Assembly (NCBI GenBank): GCA_008682415.1
Contig: VANK01000004.1
Span: 124,001-188,000 of the forward strand
Direction of reading: 5' to 3'
Length of the DNA: 64,000 bases
Source: Acidobacteria bacterium AB60
GTDB lineage: Bacteria > Acidobacteriota > Terriglobia > Terriglobales > Acidobacteriaceae
The first letter of the stretch is position 1, and each line of letters starts with the position of its first letter. The translations under genes were made by a program, and so were the position numbers. Positions 7,135-18,487 of this stretch are shown piece by piece. The notes below the pieces were generated by a model, which searched no databases, was not told where the DNA came from, and worked only from the letters and a program-made list of their open reading frames with translations.

Positions 7135-9909
7135 TCAGCCGATTCTTCTCCACACCGCGAAGTACGGCTGATTCGAAAGCGTCTTGTTGAACCCGGGATA
7201 CATCCACTTCATCCCTCGGCCGTCCTGCAGCTCGAAGAAGTATTCGAGACCGAACTCGCCTTGTGTGTACTCTGCCGGAATTGCTGCCCTGTAGGCGCCC
7301 TCTCCAGCCGTGGCGCCCAGTGCATTCCAGCGCTCAGCCTGGTTGATATGTCGAAATCGGAGCCGCACCGAACGAATGTCCGGAGTCCCTGCGCCGCTCG
7401 AAACCTCGAGCTTCAGTAGGAGGGGTAGTCCGGGCGCAAACTTCTCCGGGGGTGTGTGTTTGCCCGTCACTTGGCGGGCCGCCTGCGCGATCTCTGAAGC
7501 CTCCGTGATTCTGGCGCCCGCGCCGGAAGAGTTTGCTCCCGCTCTGTTCTGCTGGATATTTGCTGTCATTGCAGCGATATCGGCGTCGATCGCAGGGAGC
7601 CTGTCGACCCAGTGTCCGCTTCGCTTGGGAACGCTGCCATAGGAAACATTCGCGCGATACACGCTCCTCGCGCGTTCCGCCATTGCTGACCACGCGTCTC
7701 GTGCCTTTTGATAATGCTCGATCGCGGCTTTACCGGAGCCGGCGTCGCCCGCTTGCTGGAAAATCTCGTAATGCACGGCGCTGCGCAGTTTGTGCGCGAA
7801 GAAGGACCCCAGACCGACCTGAATGAGAACATCCTCCTCAATCCGCCGGAACGCGTCTCGCGTACGATCCTTCACAATACTTGCTGCGGACTGCAACGAG
7901 GACTGCGCATCGTCGACGCATTGCTCAATCCAGCGCGCCACATCAATGGGTGAATACTTCGCGGACATCTCTTTTCGACCCAGCGAGCCCACATGTTCGA
8001 CGATCGTTGAAAACATCTGTGGATCCAGAGGGCTGACCGTTCCAAATATCTTTGGCACCGGAGTATCGCCGTAAGGAGAAGGCTCACTGCCCTCGACGAT
8101 GGGCATGTTGGTCGGCAACTCGTACCAGAGATCGTGATTACTCGCCGAGGGCAGATGCGCCGAGGTAAGGAGAGGCAGAATGCGAGACGCGTGCGCTAGT
8201 GATTTCTCGGTAGTCTCCATACCCGCCCCGAAGTCCGCCCGCATCGCTCTTCGCCAGCTCTCAGGATCTGCATCGGGCGCATACAATCTGCGGCCCCAAA
8301 CACGATAGTAGAGATCGTATTTTTGCCAATCGTGCCTGGGGTTCAGCGACTGATCCGCGTAGGCGCATCGTCCTCCCGGCTGGCCTGAGCCCTCGCGCCC
8401 TTTGAACGTCAACGGCTCCATCAGATCAAGACCAGTCGCCCCGCCGAAGCTGGCGGCGCGCCCGTATGCTGCGGCCATCTCGGAGTCGACCGACAGAAGA
8501 TGTCGTTGTGTGCCGGGCCACAGCCGGAACCAAAGCTTATATAGCGATCCATCGCGAAGAAAATCTGCATAGCCATAACGGGTAAAGCTTCGGGACCCGC
8601 TGCTGAAACGGAAGAGCGCCTCATCGTTTCGCGACAGGCTGCCGTGAGGAATCTCCAGGGATCGGATGTCGGCCTGCTGATATCCCAGGCTCTGGTGCTC
8701 TGCCGAGAACTTGGCCCCCAGCTTGACCGGCATCCCGGTGGCGGTTGCGACCTCGATGGTCTTTTCATCGACACCTTTCGCATGCATGTCGATCTCGATC
8801 ATCCGTCCCGAATCGGCCACGGCCTGGAACACCGTACGCCAAAAGTCATAGCTTCCTTCCGGTATCCCGCTTTCCCCATGCACCCGCAACGTGAGTCCCT
8901 GAATTCCGGGACACGCTTTCAGAATGACTGCGAGTGCGTCGCGACAATAAGCCGCATGATTGTCCGGCGTGAGGCCCTCAATGCGGTGATACGCCTGCGG
9001 GCTATCGGTCCATTGGTAGGCGTGCGTCCAGATGCCCAACTGAAACTGCAGCCCCCGGGCAGCGGTCTCCGCTGCAACAAATTGCAGCATCTCCATGTTC
9101 CTTTCGCGCTCCTCGCGAGCAAGAGGCGTCGGAGTCGCGAGTCTGGTACCGTCTGCTGCGGCAAGGCGCAGGGCTCGGACTTGCGGATATCCAGGAACCT
9201 CGACCAGATATGGATAGACAAAATGAAAGTAGTCATCGGTGACGCCGCGCGGAAAGTCATACTCAAGGCCGAAGCCGAGGGTGAACCGGTTGAAGCGGCT
9301 GGCGATCAGGTGGTCGAGGTACCCGCTCCAAAACTCCTTGTTGTAGTACCACGGCTTGTCCTCCAGTTCGCTGCAGAAATAGCGGCTCACACTGCGCACG
9401 TCATTGACAGGCTTGTCTTCCAGGGCGCTCGTCAACTGCAACGCTTGCAGAGGCTCGCGGCCGTACCTGACTCGCTCAGCCATCTCGAGCAGTCCATAGA
9501 CATAGCCTCTGGCATCGCGCGCGGAAATAAGAGTACCCGGCACTCTGCCGATCCGCCCCGGTTTCATCTGCAGGCTCTCCGCCGTTGCGATTGTCTGTCC
9601 CCGGGCGAACCCTCTGGCAAAGGGCGAGTCCGGATCCGCAAGAACAACGCAGTGGGCCGCACCTTCGATCGCAACGGCCGACCGGGCGACTTCTTGTTTC
9701 ACGCCCATTTCTCCGAGAGCCTGACCCAGGCGAGCGATAGCCCTCATCGAAGGGGCGCTAGATGCCATCGAGTTCTCGGGATCAATGAGCAGACAGGCGC
9801 GCGCGGCACCCGCAGCAGAGCTGGGTGAGAAAAGGCCACACGTTCCCGCTGCTCCGGCGAGTCTCAAAAATTCCCTGCGAGGGAGATTGCGGACGGCATC
9901 GACCTTCAT
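7135..9909 (-). CDS. Tat-exported glycoside hydrolase-like protein, family uncertain
   Basis: A 924-aa protein beginning at ATG 9909 with GGAG nine bases upstream. The N-terminus has a twin-arginine signal (NLPRREFLRLAGAAG), so it is exported folded. Residues about 50-160 look like the small alpha/beta domain that precedes the barrel in GH67 and GH20 enzymes. A large (beta/alpha)8-like middle follows, with blocks such as RVHGESGIPEG (probable catalytic-site region), MHAKGVDEKT, and the aromatic-rich WPGTQRHLLS. The C-terminal 250 residues are mostly helical and end in a beta domain. I recognise the overall type from uncharacterised bacterial proteins sometimes labelled alpha-glucuronidase-like, but I cannot assign a family or substrate. 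An alpha-glucuronidase would fit the neighbouring arabinofuranosidases. It is divergent from the second GH51 gene. Confidence 0.6.
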   Translation of the reverse strand: MKVDAVRNLPRREFLRLAGAAGTCGLFSPSSAAGAARACLLIDPENSMASSAPSMRAIARLGQALGEMGVKQEVARSAVAIEGAAHCVVLADPDSPFARGFARGQTIATAESLQMKPGRIGRVPGTLISARDARGYVYGLLEMAERVRYGREPLQALQLTSALEDKPVNDVRSVSRYFCSELEDKPWYYNKEFWSGYLDHLIASRFNRFTLGFGLEYDFPRGVTDDYFHFVYPYLVEVPGYPQVRALRLAAADGTRLATPTPLAREERERNMEMLQFVAAETAARGLQFQLGIWTHAYQWTDSPQAYHRIEGLTPDNHAAYCRDALAVILKACPGIQGLTLRVHGESGIPEGSYDFWRTVFQAVADSGRMIEIDMHAKGVDEKTIEVATATGMPVKLGAKFSAEHQSLGYQQADIRSLEIPHGSLSRNDEALFRFSSGSRSFTRYGYADFLRDGSLYKLWFRLWPGTQRHLLSVDSEMAAAYGRAASFGGATGLDLMEPLTFKGREGSGQPGGRCAYADQSLNPRHDWQKYDLYYRVWGRRLYAPDADPESWRRAMRADFGAGMETTEKSLAHASRILPLLTSAHLPSASNHDLWYELPTNMPIVEGSEPSPYGDTPVPKIFGTVSPLDPQMFSTIVEHVGSLGRKEMSAKYSPIDVARWIEQCVDDAQSSLQSAASIVKDRTRDAFRRIEEDVLIQVGLGSFFAHKLRSAVHYEIFQQAGDAGSGKAAIEHYQKARDAWSAMAERARSVYRANVSYGSVPKRSGHWVDRLPAIDADIAAMTANIQQNRAGANSSGAGARITEASEIAQAARQVTGKHTPPEKFAPGLPLLLKLEVSSGAGTPDIRSVRLRFRHINQAERWNALGATAGEGAYRAAIPAEYTQGEFGLEYFFELQDGRGMKWMYPGFNKTLSNQPYFAVWRRIG

Positions 9910-10058
9910 GTTTCGAAACTCCGCAGTTTGTTAGTCCTCGCAATGAAACCACGCAGATCTTGCATGATCGCCTCCGGGGTACGTGCGCGTTGTCCGCTAG
10001 AATAGCAGCCAGTATTGAACTGGACAGCCCGTACGCTGATAATTCCGGAATCTCCTCC

Positions 10059-12032
10059 ATGAATCGACGTAACTTCCTCAAGGAATTTATGGCGGCTGGC
10101 GCTGCCGGCCGCCTTTACGGCATGTCGGCCGTGCCGCTTGCGCCTGAAGCGAGCAGTGAGCCCGGAGTCACCGTTCTGCTCGTCGACTCGGACCGGACCA
10201 CGGTGACGGTCGATCAGCGGGTTTATGGGCAATTCCTCGAGCACATCAACCACTCCGTTGAGGATGGCCTATTCGCCGAACAGATACGTGGTGCGGGCTT
10301 CGAGGGGGAAGACTTCAAAACCTATTGGGATTCATCGGCAGAGCGTGGCGGCGTTGATCTTGCAGAGGTCAATTTTCAAAACGGCAAGAAGAGCGTGCGC
10401 CTGCGCGTGGACGGCGGGCACGCGGCGATCCGCCAGGGTCGGCTCTTCCTGGATGCCGGCGTGAAGTACGAAGGTTCTCTCTGGCTGAAGCATCTGAACG
10501 GATCACCGAAGTTGATGCTTTCGTTCAGGACCTCCAGAGGCGAGACCCTTGCATCGCTGCCCCTGGCGATCATCGGCTCAGACTGGCACGAGATTCCATT
10601 TGCATTCACCAGCCCCGCGCGCGATACGCAGGCGTCGATTGAGATTACTGCCGCTGGAAAGGGCTCGGTTCTCCTGGATTTCGTTTCCCTGATGCGGGCG
10701 GACGCTCGCAGGAATGGCATGTTGCGGCCGGACCTGCTCAAGGCTCTTCGCGATCTTCGCCCCTCGTTCATTCGATGGCCCGGCGGATCATTCGCTTCTA
10801 CCTACCGATGGGAAGATGGCATCGGACCCCTGGTTGCCCGCCGCTATCATCCCAACCTCATCTGGGGAGGGTACTCCGACTACTACGGGTTCGGTACAGA
10901 CGAGTTTCTCGGCTTGTGCCGCCAGATCGGCGCTGAACCTCTGATCGTGCTGCCGGCCCCGGGCCCCAGCCCCGAGGAGGTCGACTACGCCATCAATTGG
11001 GTGCACTACCTCAACGACCCTCCCTCGACCGAGTGGGGGCAAAGACGAGCCGCGAATGGCCACCCTGATCCATACGGCGTAACAATGTTTCAGATCGACA
11101 ATGAGCCGATGAATAATGGCTTCACACCGGAGACATACGCGCAGATCGTGAATGTTTACGGGCAGCGCCTGCGGGACGTTGCTCCGAACGCGCGTATCGT
11201 AGCGTGCGGTCAGAAGCGATCGAATGATATGGAGTGGAGCGAGAAGGTGATCGATCTCGCAGGTGATAACTTCGACATACTAGGCTGTCACAACTACGAG
11301 TACGAACCTGCTAACTTCGAGACCGGACTGCGACGGATTCGCGATTACCTTGTCAGGTTGCGGGACTACATTCACGCATCGAAGCACCCGCACATCCAGA
11401 TTGGCGTACTGGAGTGGAGTCTGCAGCACACCTACGACTGGCGCGCAGGTCTCCATACTGCGGGAAGCCTCATGCTGTACGAAGAACTCAGCCCGGCCTT
11501 GGCCATGACCTGCCCTGCCTTACTGATGCGAAACACCACGGACGATCCCAAGTGGACCTCCTTCATCTATCACGATCACGTGTCATGGTTCCCAGGCGCC
11601 GGGTATGTCGTTGAAAAGCTCTTCCGAGAGCATTACGCCGAGCGATATCTTGCCTCCGCGACCGGCACCTTCCGGGATGTGCCCGACCGTCGCAGTTTGT
11701 TCGACAAGATATCCACGGTGATACCGCAGGATTGGGTACCCGGCTCGATGGATGCGATCGCCACGACAAGCGCGGACGGACGCGTGGTCGTCATCAAGGC
11801 GGTGAACTACGACGCCCACAAGAATACGCTGCTTATCCAGCTGCAAGGCTCCAAGATCGCCGCACGCGGCTCAGCGACATTGCACACCATCACCGCGGGG
11901 CTCACCGACATTGCATCTCTCGATCGGCCGGAGGCCATTACGACAAAGACCACCACTCTCCCATACACGATGAATTTCACGATCGATCTGGACCCCTATA
12001 CTGTCGCGGTTCTGGAACTGAGTGGGGGATAA
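10059..12032 (+). CDS. Alpha-L-arabinofuranosidase, GH51 family, Tat-type leader
   Basis: A second GH51 enzyme of 657 aa, only distantly similar to the one at 2737. I start it at ATG 10059, where a leader with paired arginines (MNRRNFLKEF) and a small-residue stretch begins; the frame is open further upstream, but that part lies over the divergent gene's promoter. VYGQFLEHINHSVEDG is the family N-terminal motif. The acid/base Glu349 is in QIDNEPMN and the nucleophile Glu452 is in GVLEWSLQH. RWPGGSFASTY contributes the usual substrate-binding loop. A C-terminal beta domain ends at LDPYTVAVLELSGG. Having two divergent GH51 enzymes, one probably Sec- and one Tat-exported, suggests different arabinan linkages or different fold and cofactor needs. 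Confidence 0.9.
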   Translation: MNRRNFLKEFMAAGAAGRLYGMSAVPLAPEASSEPGVTVLLVDSDRTTVTVDQRVYGQFLEHINHSVEDGLFAEQIRGAGFEGEDFKTYWDSSAERGGVDLAEVNFQNGKKSVRLRVDGGHAAIRQGRLFLDAGVKYEGSLWLKHLNGSPKLMLSFRTSRGETLASLPLAIIGSDWHEIPFAFTSPARDTQASIEITAAGKGSVLLDFVSLMRADARRNGMLRPDLLKALRDLRPSFIRWPGGSFASTYRWEDGIGPLVARRYHPNLIWGGYSDYYGFGTDEFLGLCRQIGAEPLIVLPAPGPSPEEVDYAINWVHYLNDPPSTEWGQRRAANGHPDPYGVTMFQIDNEPMNNGFTPETYAQIVNVYGQRLRDVAPNARIVACGQKRSNDMEWSEKVIDLAGDNFDILGCHNYEYEPANFETGLRRIRDYLVRLRDYIHASKHPHIQIGVLEWSLQHTYDWRAGLHTAGSLMLYEELSPALAMTCPALLMRNTTDDPKWTSFIYHDHVSWFPGAGYVVEKLFREHYAERYLASATGTFRDVPDRRSLFDKISTVIPQDWVPGSMDAIATTSADGRVVVIKAVNYDAHKNTLLIQLQGSKIAARGSATLHTITAGLTDIASLDRPEAITTKTTTLPYTMNFTIDLDPYTVAVLELSGG

Positions 12033-12087
12033 GTCGCGAAGGCCAGGATGCAAACGGTCGTTTATCATACGCTGCACAGGACTCCTC

Positions 12088-13380
12088 ATGATGCGCACCC
12101 GATTCGCCTTCGGAAAAACCGGCTTCGAAGTAGCAATCCCGGACAACTACGACTGCGCTGTGCTCGAGAGCCGCGCTGTTCAACCTCTTGCTGACGCGAA
12201 CGCCGCTCTAGAACAGGCTCTCGATCACCCTCTCGCATCGGCGCCTCTTGAAGAGCTTGCCAAGGGCAAGCGCCGGGTCGCCGTCGTGGTCTGCGATATC
12301 ACCCGCCCCGCTCCCAATCGCATCACGCTCCCGCCCCTGCTCGAACGGCTTCACAGGTCCGGCATCATCCGCGCCGACGTCACAATTCTGATCGCAACAG
12401 GCTTGCATCGAGCGGCTACGCGGGAAGAAGTGGATCAGATCGTCGGACCGGAGATCGCTAGATCGTACCGGATCATCAGCAATGACGCGCGAGCAACAGG
12501 ACAGCATCGCCATCTGGGTGCCACCGGCCGCGGGACCCCCATCCACATTCACAATGACTTCGTCGACGCGGACCTCCGCATCACCCTTGGCTTCATCGAG
12601 CCGCATCTGATGGCTGGCTATTCGGGAGGAAGGAAACTCGTCGTACCCGGCGTCGCCGCGGAACCCACTATCAAGGCAATTCACTCGCCCCGATTCATGC
12701 GCGAGCCCCTCGCCACCGAGGGGTCCATCGAAGGCAACCCCCTGCACCAGGAGTTGCTCGAGATCGCGCGCGCTGCACACCACGATTTCATTCTCGACGT
12801 CACGCTCACTCGAGACCGTCAGATATCGGGAGTCTTCGCAGGCGATCCCATCCTGGCGCATGCAGCGGGCGTTCGTTTCGTCCAGGAACATTGTCTCAAT
12901 CATCTCGAACACCCCGCTGACCTGGTCGTAACCAGTTCCGCAGGGTTTCCTCTCGACCTGACTTTTTATCAGAGCGTGAAAGCAGTAACTGCAGCTCAAC
13001 ACCTGATTAGGGAAAGCGGCAGCATCCTCGTCGTCGCGGAGTGCTCTGAGGGAGTTGGGTCCCTTGAGTTTGCGGCAAGCCTGAAGACCCTCCAGTCCTT
13101 CGAAGCATACCTCCACGAGATTGCCACTAGCCCGGTGGAGATCGATCAATGGCAGGTCGAGAAACTGGCCCTCGCCGCGCTTCAAAGCCAGCTCTTCTTC
13201 TACACACCCGGGGTTCAGGCCGAAGACCTCGGAATCCTGAGGAATCGCTGGTTTCCTACCTTAAAGGATGCTCTTAAAGCGGCTACAGCCGAGCTGGCAC
13301 CGGGAGCAAAGGTCCTCCTTGTACCCGAAGGCCCGTATACTTTTGCGAAGGTCCTTCGTCCTGCCACGGAGACACGATGA
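12088..13380 (+). CDS. LarA-type nickel-pincer-dependent 2-hydroxyacid racemase/epimerase
   Basis: Family members move the C2 hydride of a 2-hydroxyacid to and from a nickel-pincer nucleotide. All residues I recall as catalytic in Lactiplantibacillus LarA are present, nearly at the same numbers: Asp70 and Arg73 (CDITRPAPN), His107 (TGLHR), His173 (EPHLMAGYSG), the cofactor-bearing Lys183 (GGRK), the nickel ligand His199, and Tyr294-Gln295 with Lys298 (FYQSVK). The enzyme should therefore be active if the cofactor makers LarB, LarC and LarE exist elsewhere; none is in this window. I start it at ATG 12088 (430 aa), after AGGACTCCTC; the frame is open back into the preceding GH51 gene. It heads a same-strand set with a permease remnant, a DUF1537 kinase and PdxA2, so an aldonate such as D-erythronate or D-threonate is a better substrate guess than lactate. 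Confidence 0.85.
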   Translation: MMRTRFAFGKTGFEVAIPDNYDCAVLESRAVQPLADANAALEQALDHPLASAPLEELAKGKRRVAVVVCDITRPAPNRITLPPLLERLHRSGIIRADVTILIATGLHRAATREEVDQIVGPEIARSYRIISNDARATGQHRHLGATGRGTPIHIHNDFVDADLRITLGFIEPHLMAGYSGGRKLVVPGVAAEPTIKAIHSPRFMREPLATEGSIEGNPLHQELLEIARAAHHDFILDVTLTRDRQISGVFAGDPILAHAAGVRFVQEHCLNHLEHPADLVVTSSAGFPLDLTFYQSVKAVTAAQHLIRESGSILVVAECSEGVGSLEFAASLKTLQSFEAYLHEIATSPVEIDQWQVEKLALAALQSQLFFYTPGVQAEDLGILRNRWFPTLKDALKAATAELAPGAKVLLVPEGPYTFAKVLRPATETR

Positions 13381-13434
13381 CCGGCCTACGTTGCCTGCAC
13401 TCCTATCGGTTCACCTCATTGAGGCCTGCCGCCG

Positions 13435-14383
13435 ATGTCGATTCCACTTAAGCGCTTTGTGGATCGCGTGCCTAGCGGCATGAGGATTCTGCCCCTTGCG
13501 GCAGGCACTCTCCTGGGGACCTTCGCCCCTAAAACTCGGGAGTTTTTTTGGATCCTCCACGGGCGCCCTCTTCACCGGTTCCTTACCAATTCTCGCAGTC
13601 TTCTATGTTTGCATCGGCGCAACCGTGTCGGTTGGCTCTCTTCCAGGTGTACTGAAGAATGGCGGGGTTCTGCTCGGGACCAAGGTATTGCAGGGGATTG
13701 CAGTAGGGTCGTCTTCGGCCATTGGATCGGAATCAACCCGATCGCTACCGGATGGTTCTCGGCTTTTCCACCCTGGCTGCTGTCGCCGCAATCAGTGACA
13801 CAAACGGCGGCTTATATATGGCCCTGAGGAATCAATACAGTCGCGCCGAGGATGCAGTCGCCTACTCTGTCATGTCGCTCGAATCCGGTCCTTTCCTGAC
13901 CATGGTCACGCTTGGAGTAGCAGGCCTGTCAGCCTTTCCCTGGCACGCCCTGGTCGGGGATCCTGCCGCTTGCACTGGGCATGCTCCTCGGCAATCTCGA
14001 TCCCGAGCTCCGCGAGTTTCTCGGCAAAGCTGCCCAGTGCTCATTCCCTTCATCGCCTTCGCGCTCGGTGCTACGCTGAACCTCAAGCTCATCTGGAAAG
14101 CTGGCCTCTCCGGACTGGCCCTCGGAATATCGGTGCTGAATCTCTCCTCGTTTTTCCTCGCCATTGTAGACCGAGTTGCTGGAGGCAAAGGAACTGCCGG
14201 AATCGACGCGGCAACACGGCGGGCAATGTGGCCGCTGTTCCAGCGCTGGTAGCCGCCGCCAATCCGAAATATGCTGCGGCGGCCGCTCCCGCCGCAGTTC
14301 TCGTGGCGTGCAGCGTCATCGTGACCGCATTGGCTGTTCGGTTCCCCACCGCCTGGTGGCATGCGCGGGTATCCTCAAAATAG
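13435..14383 (+). pseudogene. KdgT-like 2-keto-3-deoxygluconate permease, multiply frameshifted
   Basis: Joining reading frames gives a recognisable KdgT-family transporter of normal length (about 315 residues). The pieces in order are [18 protein letters not shown] (frame 1), then [14 protein letters not shown] and [17 protein letters not shown] (frame 2), [17 protein letters not shown] and MSLESGPFLTMV (frame 3), ILPLALGMLLGNLDPELREF (frame 1), IPFIAFALGATLNL through GGKGTAGIDAA (frame 3), and VPALVAAANPKYAAAAAPAA (frame 2). At least five shifts are needed, near 13547 (in a T7 run), 13700-13755, 13957 (a GGGG run), 14037 and 14210. Genes on both sides are intact, which argues for true decay rather than poor base calling. 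The parent would have imported a sugar acid for the neighbouring catabolic enzymes. Confidence 0.85.
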
Positions 14384-14397
14384 ACAGAGGATCTCGA

Positions 14398-15702
14398 TTG
14401 GTGGCCAGGATCATTACCATCGCCGATGACCTGACCGGCGCAGCCGATTGCGCGGCGCCATCCGTCGCACACGGCTGTAAGGCGGTGGTCCTCCTGCATT
14501 CTCTTGACCTTGAGCGTGAAGCCTGGCCCGAGGCTGATCTCCTCTCTATCGACTTGAACACCCGCTGTCTCTCGCCGGAACGTGCCGCCGAGGTGACGAC
14601 ACACTTCGTTCGTCTTTACGAAATGAAAAGCGCGGAGTCCTCCGAATACGTTCTTTTCAAAAAGATTGATTCGACGCTGCGTGGAAACATAGCCCACGAA
14701 ATTGCCGCGCTGCTGCAGGTCCGCCGCTCCAGCGAATCTTTCGATAGGCGTTTGTCCATTCTCCTGGCTCCGGCGCTCCCGGAACAGGGCCGCACAACGG
14801 TTTGTGGCCGTCTGCTGGTGCATGGGCGCTCGGCGGAAAAGACGGACATTTGGCGATTTGAGCCCCGGAATCCGCCGTCCAGCATCCCTCAGCTTCTATC
14901 CGATGCGGCCCTTTCGTGCGCATTGATCGACATAGAAATGGTCCGCTCCGGATTGAAATTCCTCCGGCGGGCCATTCTGGAAGCGGCCAAGCGATCCGAC
15001 GTGGTTCTCTGCGATGCGGTAACGGACTCCGACCTGCGGGCTATAGTTGCGGCCTCTTTGCGCCAGCCAGGCATCACCTCATTGGTGGGATCTGCCGGCT
15101 TGGCCTGTCACATTCCGCAATCCCTCGGGATCATCTCCAAAGCCGCCCACCATCAAGGAGGCTTCGCAATTGGCCCTACCCTGTTTGTCGTCGGGAGCGC
15201 GTCCTCTGTTTCGCGGCAGCAGTCTGAACTCCTGAGCGCGATGCCGGAAGTCGCCAGCTACAGGACAACACCTGCGGTCCTTCACGACTCGCTGGCGATA
15301 CGCACGCAGATCAGCCAAAGCCTTCAGTCCGGCCGCGATGTGCTTCTCTCGCTGCAGGAAGATGGGCAACGCTCAAAGCAGGGAGATCGGCTGCGTGGCT
15401 TCTCGCTGATCTCATCACAATGTGCGCCATTCATTGGCGGACTCGTCGCCACTGGAGGAGAGACTGCGAGAGCTATTCTGGACGGACTTGGCATCCATCG
15501 ATTGCGTGTGCTCGGCCAGGTGGACCCGGGAATGCCATTTTCTGTTGCAGAGTGCTGGCAGCGTCCGCTGCCGGTCATCACCAAAGCCGGCGCATTCGGT
15601 GCTCCACAGGCGCTTCTTCGCTGTCTCAGCTTTCTGCGGGAACTCCAGCGCGCGCCTGCGCCTGTTCGCGCGAACGATCCGTTACTTAGTCACGAGAGTT
15701 GA
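14398..15702 (+). CDS. Four-carbon sugar-acid kinase, DUF1537 (DtnK/OtnK-like)
   Basis: The family phosphorylates the 4-OH of D-threonate, D- or L-erythronate or related acids using ATP. The 434-aa protein shows the N-terminal substrate domain (IADDLTGAADCAA, then FKKIDSTLRGN and PALPEQGRTTV) and the C-terminal nucleotide domain (VVGSASSVSRQQ, LVATGGETARAIL, and the closing TKAGAFGAPQALL). Length matches the family. The start is TTG 14398 or GTG 14401: GAGG lies seven bases before the TTG, and the earlier open frame is the tail of the permease pseudogene. The stop codon is one base short of the PdxA start, so the two are probably translated together. In characterised pathways this kinase plus PdxA2 is enough to degrade D-threonate to dihydroxyacetone phosphate. 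Confidence 0.9.
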   Translation: MVARIITIADDLTGAADCAAPSVAHGCKAVVLLHSLDLEREAWPEADLLSIDLNTRCLSPERAAEVTTHFVRLYEMKSAESSEYVLFKKIDSTLRGNIAHEIAALLQVRRSSESFDRRLSILLAPALPEQGRTTVCGRLLVHGRSAEKTDIWRFEPRNPPSSIPQLLSDAALSCALIDIEMVRSGLKFLRRAILEAAKRSDVVLCDAVTDSDLRAIVAASLRQPGITSLVGSAGLACHIPQSLGIISKAAHHQGGFAIGPTLFVVGSASSVSRQQSELLSAMPEVASYRTTPAVLHDSLAIRTQISQSLQSGRDVLLSLQEDGQRSKQGDRLRGFSLISSQCAPFIGGLVATGGETARAILDGLGIHRLRVLGQVDPGMPFSVAECWQRPLPVITKAGAFGAPQALLRCLSFLRELQRAPAPVRANDPLLSHES

Positions 15703-15703
15703 T

Positions 15704-16726
15704 ATGCCGAAACCAATTGTCGCGATCACAATGGGAGATGCTGCCGGGGTTGGCCCCGAAATCATCATGAAGAGCCTGTCACACCCGGAGGTCCACGACC
15801 TCTGCTTTCCCCTGGTGATCGGCGATGCTGGCAGGTTGCACAGTGCGGGATCGATTGTGGGAACACGACTCGAAATCCGCAGCATGCTGGAGTCAGAATT
15901 AGAATCTGCCAACTTCACCGTCGATGCCGTCAATTGCGTGGACCTCAAACTGATCCCACCAGAACTACCGTGGGGCAAACTTTCGCGCCACGCCGGCGAA
16001 GCTGCCTATCGCTACCTCGAGCTTGCTGCGCGCCTCGCCCTCGAAAGACGCGTGGCAGCCATCTGCACGGCGCCCATCAATAAGGAGGCACTTCAGGCCG
16101 CAGGGCACAAATTCCCCGGCCATACGGAACTCCTGGCGCACCTCACCGGAACACCGGAAGTCTCCATGATGCTGACCACTGCGAAGCTGAAGGTGCTGCA
16201 TGTAACCACGCACATCGGTCTAATCGATGCGATTTCACGCATCGAACCGGGTCTCGTCCAACGCACCATCGCCCGCGGGCGCGAGGCTCTCGAACGAACA
16301 GGCATAAGGGATCCACATATTGGGGTGTGCGGCATCAATCCACATGCGGGGGAGAATGGCCTGTTCGGTCACGGGGAAGAAGAAGAGAAGATCATACCAG
16401 CAGTCAACATCTGTCGCGCTCGCGGATGGAACGTCGAGGGCCCACTGCCCGCGGACACGCTGTTCTATCGCGCTCAGCGGGGCGATTTCGACCTGGTGAT
16501 AGCCATGTACCATGATCAAGGCCACGGCCCTGTGAAAGTGCTCGGGCTTGAGTCGGGAGTAAACATCACCGTCGGCCTGCCGGTAGTGAGAACGTCGGTC
16601 GATCACGGGACCGCTTTCGATATCGCTGGTACCGGAAAGGCTGACGAGCGCAGCCTCCTTGAAGCCCTTCGCCAGGCCGTTCAACTCGCGCCACAATGGA
16701 ACCCGAGCGCGGCTGGATTCAAATAG
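15704..16726 (+). CDS. pdxA2: PdxA2-type 4-phospho-sugar-acid dehydrogenase/decarboxylase
   Basis: A 340-aa member of the PdxA family, beginning at ATG 15704 right after the kinase stop, with GAGAG upstream. Family motifs are complete: ITMGDAAGVGPEI at the N-terminus, PGHTELLAHLT, VTTHIGLIDAI, GINPHAGENGLFG, and MYHDQGHGPVKVLG. The three metal-binding histidines are His170, His214 and His270. Biosynthetic PdxA makes a precursor of pyridoxal phosphate, while PdxA2 oxidatively decarboxylates 4-phospho-D-threonate or -erythronate to dihydroxyacetone phosphate. The adjacent DUF1537 kinase makes the catabolic PdxA2 role much more likely. No ltnD, otnC or otnI homologue is nearby, so the pathway here would be the short two-step one, possibly fed by the LarA homologue. 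Confidence 0.9.
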   Translation: MPKPIVAITMGDAAGVGPEIIMKSLSHPEVHDLCFPLVIGDAGRLHSAGSIVGTRLEIRSMLESELESANFTVDAVNCVDLKLIPPELPWGKLSRHAGEAAYRYLELAARLALERRVAAICTAPINKEALQAAGHKFPGHTELLAHLTGTPEVSMMLTTAKLKVLHVTTHIGLIDAISRIEPGLVQRTIARGREALERTGIRDPHIGVCGINPHAGENGLFGHGEEEEKIIPAVNICRARGWNVEGPLPADTLFYRAQRGDFDLVIAMYHDQGHGPVKVLGLESGVNITVGLPVVRTSVDHGTAFDIAGTGKADERSLLEALRQAVQLAPQWNPSAAGFK

Positions 16727-17017: not shown

Positions 17018-18487
17018 ATGATTGAACACGAGGTGGTCATTGCAGGTGGAGGTCCGACGGGGCTGATGTTAGCGGGTGAGTTGGCGCTCGCGGGCGTTGA
17101 CGTAGCGGTTGTCGAGCGCCGCGAGAACCAAGCCCTAGAAGGATTGCGGGCGGGTGGTTTGCACATACGCACCATTGAAGTACTGGATCAGCGCGGTATC
17201 GCCGACCGATTTATCTCCCAGGGACAAATCGTTCGCAAAATTCCGTTCGCGCTTACCGCCCTCGACATAAGCGATCAGCCAACTCGCCACAACTACTATC
17301 TCGCCCTCTGGCAGAATCCCACCGAACGGACGCTGGCTGACTGGGTTGACGAACTCTCGGTGCCGGTCTATCGCGGTCTCGAAGTTACAGACTTCCATCA
17401 GGACGATACGGGGGTGGATGTGAAGTTGTCTGACGGCCAACGCTTGGGAGCGAAGTATCTTGTTGGATGCGACGGGGGACGCAGCCAGGTACGCAAAATG
17501 GCCGGAATCGACTTCCCGGGGTGGGATCCATCCACCAGCTATCTAATCGCCGAGATTGAAACCGCCCGAGAGCCCGCATGGGGCGTGCGTCACGGGGAAA
17601 AGGGCATCAACGCCATCGCCAAACTTGAGGGGGACAGCCAGGCCCGCGTCGTTGTGAATGAGAAGCAGATCCTCCGTGGGGATCAGCCAACAGTGGACGA
17701 TCTCCGCGAGGCCCTGATCGGAGTCTACGGAACGGATTTTGGCCTCCGAAATGCCGCCTACATTTCCAGGTTCACGGACGCCACCAGGCAGGCGGGGCGC
17801 TACCGGAATGGCCGCGTGCTCCTGGCCGGCGACGCCGCACACGTGCACTCCCCGGTCGGCGGTCAAGGACTTAACATCGGCGTACAGGACGCGGTGAACT
17901 TGGGCTGGAAACTCGGCCAGGTAGTAAATGGCGTATCGCGGGACACTCTCCTGGACACCTATCATGCGGAGCGACACCCCGCCGGTGCGCGCATGCTGCG
18001 GAATACCATGGCGCTCACTGCCATTCATCGAAAGGAGGACCGAATTGATGCATTGCGCGAGTTGATGTGCGAATTGGTCCAGCAAACCGATAGCGCGCGC
18101 AAGCACTACGTCGCCATGATCTCCGGCCTCGACACTCGCTATGACCTAGGTGAAGGGCACCCGCTCCTCGGCCGCAGAATGCCGGACCTTGACCTGATCA
18201 CCTCCGACGGTCCCCTGCGAACTTTTGCCCTGCTGCACCGTGGCCGCCCTGTGCTTCTCAATTTCGGAGAGCCTGATGCCATCGCGATTGGCCCATGGGC
18301 GAAGCGGGTCAGGGTAATCGACGCAAGCTACAGTGGCGCATGGGAGCTTCCGGCGATCGGAGTGGTCCCGGCACCTGTTGCTGTATTAGTCCGTCCGGAC
18401 GGATACGTCGGCTGGGTGGGAGACGCGAAGCAACATGGCCTCACCGAGGCGCTGACCACATGGTTCGGCGACGTCGCTGCGCCTTAG
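17018..18487 (+). CDS. FAD-dependent aromatic monooxygenase (rifampicin-monooxygenase-like)
   Basis: A 489-aa class A flavin hydroxylase that would use NAD(P)H and O2 to hydroxylate an aromatic compound. The start has an excellent AGGAGG site seven bases upstream. Residues 6-20 hold the FAD Rossmann motif IAGGGPTGLMLAGELA. The DG motif is in VGCDGGRSQVRK (about residue 150), and the second FAD motif is in LLAGDAAHVHSPVGGQGL. The C-terminal thioredoxin-like domain present in the PheA/TfdB/Rox group is seen from about residue 380 (RTFALLHRGRPVLLNF). Overall order and length resemble the rifampicin monooxygenase branch, but the substrate cannot be read from sequence. It stands alone: catabolic genes lie upstream and a convergent pseudogene downstream. 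Confidence 0.82.
   Translation: MIEHEVVIAGGGPTGLMLAGELALAGVDVAVVERRENQALEGLRAGGLHIRTIEVLDQRGIADRFISQGQIVRKIPFALTALDISDQPTRHNYYLALWQNPTERTLADWVDELSVPVYRGLEVTDFHQDDTGVDVKLSDGQRLGAKYLVGCDGGRSQVRKMAGIDFPGWDPSTSYLIAEIETAREPAWGVRHGEKGINAIAKLEGDSQARVVVNEKQILRGDQPTVDDLREALIGVYGTDFGLRNAAYISRFTDATRQAGRYRNGRVLLAGDAAHVHSPVGGQGLNIGVQDAVNLGWKLGQVVNGVSRDTLLDTYHAERHPAGARMLRNTMALTAIHRKEDRIDALRELMCELVQQTDSARKHYVAMISGLDTRYDLGEGHPLLGRRMPDLDLITSDGPLRTFALLHRGRPVLLNFGEPDAIAIGPWAKRVRVIDASYSGAWELPAIGVVPAPVAVLVRPDGYVGWVGDAKQHGLTEALTTWFGDVAAP

Follow-up and report, generated by a model that had tools for sequence, protein, structure and literature searches.

Here, we describe a homologue of the lactate racemase gene larA in 64,000 nucleotides of DNA from Acidobacteria bacterium AB60 (contig VANK01000004.1, positions 124,001 to 188,000; G000:C28:124001-188000 in our numbering), a stretch referred to below as the window. 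The genome consists of 6.65 Mb in 33 contigs. We consider it fairly probable that the window LarA is a working short-chain racemase of the lactate/glycerate type that came by rearrangement to stand before a D-threonate operon, the importer gene of which is broken. The gene content, the residues, the cofactor genes, the disruption of kdgT and the absence of conservation at the loci examined are shown directly; the activity of this LarA, its substrate and its unrelatedness to the D-threonate genes are what we infer. Open reading frame calls and Pfam matches gave the following gene order:

12085..13380, + strand: larA homologue, 431 amino acids, intact (Pfam Lar_N 7e-62, LarA_C 2.5e-22; second ATG at 12088)
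13435..14383, + strand: kdgT remnant of the D-threonate-importer type (frame-tolerant alignment; six frame switches, in-frame stop absent along the aligned path)
~14398..15702, + strand: DUF1537 four-carbon acid sugar kinase of the dtnK type, intact (Pfam SBD_N 3e-44, NBD_C 2e-17; D-threonate kinase model NF047819 169 bits, below the cut-off of 450)
15698..16726, + strand: pdxA2-like D-threonate 4-phosphate / 4-hydroxythreonine-4-phosphate dehydrogenase, intact (PdxA Pfam 1e-104; TIGR00557 365 bits, above cut-off)

The coordinates leave 54 bases between larA and the start of kdgT, and the likely start of the kinase is TTG 14398 or GTG 14401. The original prediction for this DNA had described a permease remnant, a DUF1537 kinase and PdxA2 behind larA, and Pfam and frame-tolerant alignment confirmed all three. 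It had also taken kinase plus PdxA2 for a D-threonate route, which is supported by work in which Ralstonia eutropha KdgT was found to import D-threonate and, together with kinase and dehydrogenase activities, to enable growth of E. coli on this compound (PMC10079672).

Judged by its residues, the window LarA is a true nickel-pincer-type protein. The Lar_N and LarA_C domains both score above the Pfam cut-off. R73, H107, H173, K183, H199, Y294, Q295 and K298 (numbered from the ATG at 12088) are all present, each at the position given in the original prediction. The residues that mark the LarA superfamily, namely two catalytic His, the cofactor Lys and His, and the substrate Arg, Gln and Lys, were all found, and the catalytic and cofactor residues are identical in the window LarA and in 98 of 98 aligned rows of relatives. 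The nearest solved relative in a phmmer search was LarA of Isosphaera pallida (9eid/9eia), with an E value of about 1e-103 and ~350 bits, a similarity from which the fold is evident.

Specificity was predicted from the four positions that correspond to F175, F176, W358 and T359 of L. plantarum LarA. Lactate racemases usually have F, F, W and E/Q there, and gluconate epimerases have E, V, A and H (PMC11770544). The window LarA has L, M, W and Q. It does not carry the E, V, A, H of the aldonate (gluconate) 2-epimerase GntE and it agrees with the short-chain racemase group (SAR, group 2), in which the second catalytic His is followed by Leu-Met or Phe-Met, with an L, M, W, Q pocket as in I. pallida LarA. 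The same four pocket residues occur in I. pallida LarA, in whose crystals the side group of the substrate faces the space of Leu174, Met175, Trp356 and Gln357 (PMC11851776). Its preferred substrates are lactate and 2-hydroxybutyrate; glycerate, 2,4-dihydroxybutyrate and other acids come next, and reactivity falls when a side group of similar size is polar. The highest glycerate activity among the lactate racemases tabulated in PMC11770544 belongs to LarAH43, whose last specificity residue is Q. In the rows of relatives, where nine represent the same gene twice, W and Q were found in 98 of 98, L in 96 and M in 97.

The original prediction had suggested a check for larB, larC and larE, and all three genes were found in this genome, clustered in the order larE, larC, larB on contig C3 (L079). 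Each scored above its NCBIfam cut-off (LarE 315 bits, LarC1 199, LarC2 138, LarB 285). Therefore, the nickel-pincer nucleotide (NPN) cofactor can be made by this organism. A 276-amino-acid open frame with no Pfam or NCBIfam match lies between larE and larC (L079:7501-8331). A second LarA homologue is located on contig C27 (L080:7977-9245) and scores 652 bits with NF052594, putative hexonate epimerase, compared to a cut-off of 500; the window LarA reaches 27 of 500 bits with this model. Since the second homologue passes NF052594, it is this gene, not the window larA, that encodes the genome's aldonate-type enzyme. The second homologue adjoins a GH79-like gene.

LarA chemistry is a proton-coupled hydride transfer between two His (PMC11770544, PMC7583248, PMC11851776, PMC12611868, PMC11796402, PMC10580937, PMC12928451). 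In the mechanism we propose, the larE-larC-larB cluster on its separate contig would supply NPN to the window LarA, which would interconvert both forms of a small 2-hydroxyacid, the hydride passing between His107 and His173 with proton coupling. The genes behind larA would make up a separate D-threonate operon of importer (broken), kinase and dehydrogenase, and the contact between larA and this operon need not reflect a common pathway.

Next, the neighbourhoods of larA in related genomes were compared. A search of 200 family genomes gave a match in 22, and 15 of the 200, AB60 included, have an orthologue with at least 50% identity. Flanks of 15 other family matches were taken, to as much as 20 kb if the contig was long enough. 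Named genomes were also scanned: a single LarA protein as the query found zero relatives, and alignment A1 found 277 loci, of which the best 80 were used. A search of 396 phylum genomes gave nine more regions among the candidates scored per genome, and phylum larA loci at 35-41% identity were checked over the available flanks. The best 80 of the 277 loci, four of the nine phylum regions and the 15 family loci formed a set of 99. Within the available DNA, tblastn detected LarA in 99 of these loci and KdgT, DUF1537 and PdxA in none; the three were likewise absent from the remaining five phylum regions. For the counting of neighbours, one locus (L118) was lost when the larA frames were located, which left 98 loci, 89 of them distinct. 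Since at least 3.5 kb is available downstream in 68 of these 89 and on both sides in 54, the absence of the operon genes is firm for most loci, not all. The larA-dtnK-pdxA neighbourhood was sought from the larA, dtnK and pdxA sides, and none was found outside this genome among the loci examined. Among the genomes sampled, contact of larA with the operon is confined to this lineage. The LarA encoded by L123, whose contig bears the title Rhodanobacteraceae, is 60% identical to that of the window and groups with Acidobacteriota rows; this contig is possibly mislabelled or from a mixed bin.

Some of the related larA genes have neighbours that are more informative. A glycerate 2-kinase was found within 4 kb of larA at 7 of the 89 distinct loci and an LctP permease at 6 (5 of each within 300 bases). 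Twelve of the 89 loci have one or the other, and L185 has both. Pfam scans were run on five of these kinases and on two LctP frames, and the others were joined by BLAST. With glycerate 2-kinase as the tblastn query, 9 of the 99 loci were positive, L127 and L139 being additional to the seven. A rough chance estimate, in which each 4.5-Mb genome is given one such gene and the loci are treated as independent, is ~2e-9 for the kinase and ~8e-8 for LctP, and kinship makes both values too small. The rows with a glycerate 2-kinase or LctP are spread over several parts of the LarA tree. These better-connected relatives and the L, M, W, Q pocket together favour lactate or glycerate, and one of these two is therefore most likely the predicted substrate of the window LarA, with glycerate as our first choice.

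Larger arrangements of this kind were found on plasmids outside the phylum, where nine of 15 records with larA were read. Plasmids of Rhizobium ruizarguesonis (L204:7992-13322) and Rhodovastum atsumiense (L205:2656-9034) carry larA-larC-larE-larB-glycerate kinase and kdgT-larA-larC-larE-larB-glycerate kinase, respectively. The Rhodovastum larE is annotated as an adenine nucleotide alpha hydrolase and was named from its place. The glycerate kinases of the two plasmids fall into separate Pfam families, DUF4147/MOFRL and PF02595, and the PF02595 kinase passes TIGR00045. Both runs are candidate physiological glycerate racemase operons. When the literature was searched for LarA together with such glycerate enzymes, none of the papers listed contained the phrase glycerate racemase or glycerate kinase. 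The two plasmid LarA proteins are 37-38% identical to the window LarA and keep W-Q at the C-terminal specificity pair, but have F, not L, at the first specificity residue. Rhodovastum also resembles the window in having a KdgT next to larA, directly in front of it. The two plasmid operons differ from the window in including the cofactor genes and a glycerate kinase. Over two thirds of its length, KdgT from Rhodovastum shares 75% identity with KdgT of the Burkholderia multivorans operon. A D-threonate-type KdgT before larA was thus seen in one independent case, in an operon that ends in glycerate kinase. Across the nine loci, DUF1537 and PdxA were found in none, KdgT in one and glycerate kinase in two; other partners of larA are amino-acid-type ABC transporters (L209, L212), an L-lactate permease (L213) and a MaoC/PrpD set (L206). 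According to a 2024 survey, the significance of the wider activities of lactate racemases, glycerate among them, is still to be determined (PMC11770544). The position of larA beside glycerate kinases of two Pfam families in Acidobacteriota, Rhizobium and Rhodovastum makes a physiological role as glycerate racemase directly testable.

The genes behind the window larA represent a known kind of operon, kdgT-dtnK-pdxA2, which is complete without larA. Starting from the kinase, 23 of the 200 family genomes gave a match, with at least 41% identity in five besides AB60 (G035, G191, G181, G100 and G137). All five have PdxA behind the kinase, 74-77% identical to the window PdxA, and in four of them KdgT was matched in one piece in front of it. 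A PdxA search of the 396 phylum genomes (E 1e-100) added five loci, which makes ten Acidobacteriota loci on the operon side. Five of the ten have the full KdgT-DUF1537-PdxA run (L073, L075, L076, L077 and L241). L074 lacks KdgT, L242 has a distant DUF1537 set apart, L240 and L243 lack DUF1537, and L244 has PdxA alone. In L240, L242 and L243 (G128, G524 and G148), KdgT is followed by PdxA (70-71% identical to the window's) with no DUF1537 between them. Of five plasmid loci from proteobacteria, two (L238 and L239) have the full run, and L207, L208 and L237 have kinase and PdxA. The genes on the Burkholderia multivorans and Paraburkholderia aromaticivorans plasmids are annotated as 2-keto-3-deoxygluconate permease, four-carbon acid sugar kinase and pdxA, and the window PdxA is 67% identical to both plasmid copies. 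LarA was absent from all 15 PdxA-type loci, including the seven of seven with full kdgT-dtnK-pdxA runs, within the available flanking DNA. The window has the importer, kinase and PdxA in the same order as the five Acidobacteriota and two plasmid loci. It differs from the Burkholderia and Paraburkholderia operons in having larA directly in front and a broken kdgT. An apparent DUF1537-PdxA fusion in one long open frame was seen in L076:2935-5238 (Acidobacteriota) and L208:4711-7017 (Caballeronia, annotated as one gene).

The intactness of the operon was examined by frame-tolerant alignment. Compared to the intact KdgT of L076 (G100), the kdgT pieces could be followed over 317 residues, with 199 of 312 identical, six frame switches and zero in-frame stops. 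The homology passes through all three frames at about 13435-14383, and matches to the KdgT family in this genome are confined to this site. The same test gave zero switches in KdgT of relatives L073, L075 and L077, and zero in the window larA, dtnK and pdxA. The importer gene could be broken, or this stretch could be locally misassembled, the breaks then being local assembly errors. If real, six switches at near-full identity would imply a recent break. The idea that the DUF1537 kinase is also a decayed gene was rejected since it aligns without a frame switch; in addition, it is 41-46% identical to its relatives, which are 48-56% identical among themselves.

Several observations weigh against a lactate/glycerate-type racemase. 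The nearest NCBIfam model is the lactate racemase equivalog NF033504, and the window LarA missed its cut-off (402.5 bits compared to 460). No LctP permease was found when sought in this genome, and a glycerate 2-kinase family gene is present on a different contig from larA. Neither LctP nor glycerate 2-kinase lies within 4 kb of larA at 77 of the 89 distinct loci, and only two of the nine plasmid loci have a glycerate kinase, larA having different partners in the other annotated ones. The commonest neighbours within 4 kb at the 89 loci were folP (10), alpha-L-fucosidase (10), a DacB-type peptidase (8), an amidohydrolase (8) and a metallophosphatase (5), and the first two are uninformative on substrate. 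Also, in a rapidly built phylogeny of 94 LarA rows, which places the window LarA in a set of 23 rows with a Shimodaira-Hasegawa-like approximate likelihood ratio support of 99, its end branch is 0.85 compared to a median of 0.22, and a branch of this length may signal a changed function.

The original prediction suggested that LarA could convert D-erythronate to its C2 epimer D-threonate, as a new entry to the route. On this reading, dihydroxyacetone phosphate would then be formed by DtnK and PdxA2. If this were true, it would add a new nickel-dependent step to sugar-acid catabolism, but we regard it as unlikely. The tight same-strand spacing before kdgT-dtnK-pdxA2 fits the proposal, as does the joining of a D-threonate-type KdgT to larA in Rhodovastum, and the long LarA branch leaves room for a new specificity. 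The window kinase is the sole DUF1537 gene found in this genome, and the usual D-erythronate route, with a kinase of that family, would need it. Lactate racemases do epimerise 4-deoxy-threonate and 4-deoxy-erythronate at C2, with a kcat/KM of about 50-170 per M per s (LarA1, LarAH51 and LarAH43) compared to ~10^5 for lactate (PMC11770544). By analogy, epimerisation of a four-carbon (C4) acid appears chemically reachable, yet slow in known LarA members. In the main texts searched, neither D-threonate nor D-erythronate was described as a substrate of a LarA enzyme: PMC11770544 uses the words threonate and erythronate for 4-deoxy compounds only, PMC7583248 does not contain them, and they occurred in no other LarA paper among those listed. 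The importer is broken, and the Rhodovastum operon ends in glycerate kinase, with DUF1537 and PdxA absent from its available DNA. In the 200 family genomes, larA and dtnK-type genes occur in 15 and 6, respectively, and are shared by AB60 and one other; without AB60 the co-occurrence is not beyond chance (P 0.31, n=199). The gluconate epimerase set E, V, A, H is missing from the window LarA pocket, and the pocket of I. pallida LarA disfavours polar side groups. The nickel-pincer residues, the cofactor genes and the D-threonate route of the original prediction thus stood; the conserved LarA-DUF1537-PdxA neighbourhood, whose absence it had itself counted as evidence against the idea, was found at 0 of 99 related larA loci, and the aldonate 2-epimerase gave way to a pocket of the short-chain type, with the aldonate-type homologue encoded elsewhere. 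The C4 proposal is a weak one, based on contact in one genome beside a broken importer. In a variant that we hold to be improbable, KdgT-type importers and LarA would be a recurring pair in which import of a small sugar acid and the setting of its C2 are followed by trapping by a kinase, glycerate kinase in Rhodovastum and DtnK here, the window LarA having shifted to C4 and the conversion of D-erythronate to D-threonate.

Another possible explanation, for which we see an outside chance, is functional decay of the D-threonate operon and of larA alike, with larA drifting under relaxed selection. It would account for the six frame switches in kdgT and for the length of the LarA end branch, roughly four times the median. 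The window LarA also deviates in 6 of 131 columns conserved in at least 95% of relatives, the second most of 98 rows. On the other hand, larA, dtnK and pdxA have no frame switch, the deviating columns do not affect the catalytic residues, which are retained, and the codon-position guanine-cytosine content of larA resembles that of neighbouring open genes. In trees of the same 17 genomes, the LarA branch is 0.90 compared to 0.24 and 0.50 in two congeners (G019 is longer at 1.12), and the LarC branch of this genome is also longer, 0.37 compared to 0.21 and 0.16, although the excess is smaller than that of LarA. The excess thus seems partly genome-wide and partly larA's own, and the long LarA branch could reflect adaptation or relaxed constraint. 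It is very improbable, in our view, that DUF1537 and PdxA act together on 4-hydroxy-L-threonine in the salvage of vitamin B6 instead of on D-threonate, with no sugar acid involved. The DUF1537 kinase STM0162 phosphorylates 4-hydroxy-L-threonine (PMC10971088), and the window PdxA passes the biosynthetic TIGR00557 and misses the D-threonate model NF002891 (325 of 583 bits). However, KdgT precedes the pair in several relatives, and R. eutropha KdgT imports D-threonate.

Among known systems, I. pallida LarA (Sar, LarAIp; PDB 9eia, 9eid and 9eif), a racemase of short-chain aliphatic 2-hydroxyacids, shares the catalytic, cofactor and four pocket residues with the window LarA, which differs in adjoining D-threonate genes. 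The D-gluconate 2-epimerases GntE1 and GntE2 (LarAH19/20) have the superfamily and cofactor in common with it (PMC7583248, PMC11770544) and differ in their specificity residues, E, V, A, H compared to L, M, W, Q.

Two further genes lie upstream of larA:

9825..12032, + strand: alpha-L-arabinofuranosidase-domain protein (ASD1_dom 1.8e-14)
7135..9909, - strand: divergent glycosidase-like protein with an export-signal-like start (weak match to an alpha-galacturonidase model, 46 of 1300 bits)

The arabinofuranosidase-domain gene ends 52 bases before larA and is possibly co-transcribed with it. Promoter and terminator predictions around the operon were as numerous as in shuffled sequence and did not inform on its limits. 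A Pfam scan of the glycosidase-like protein gave no match. Homologues of this protein were detected by tblastn near larA in three relatives (L133:1330-4092, L185:13819-16566 and L123:3221-4903), which together with the window makes four genomes. Behind the operon, at 17018-18487, the window encodes a flavin adenine dinucleotide-dependent aromatic-ring monooxygenase that scores above the NF005303 (PRK06834) cut-off.

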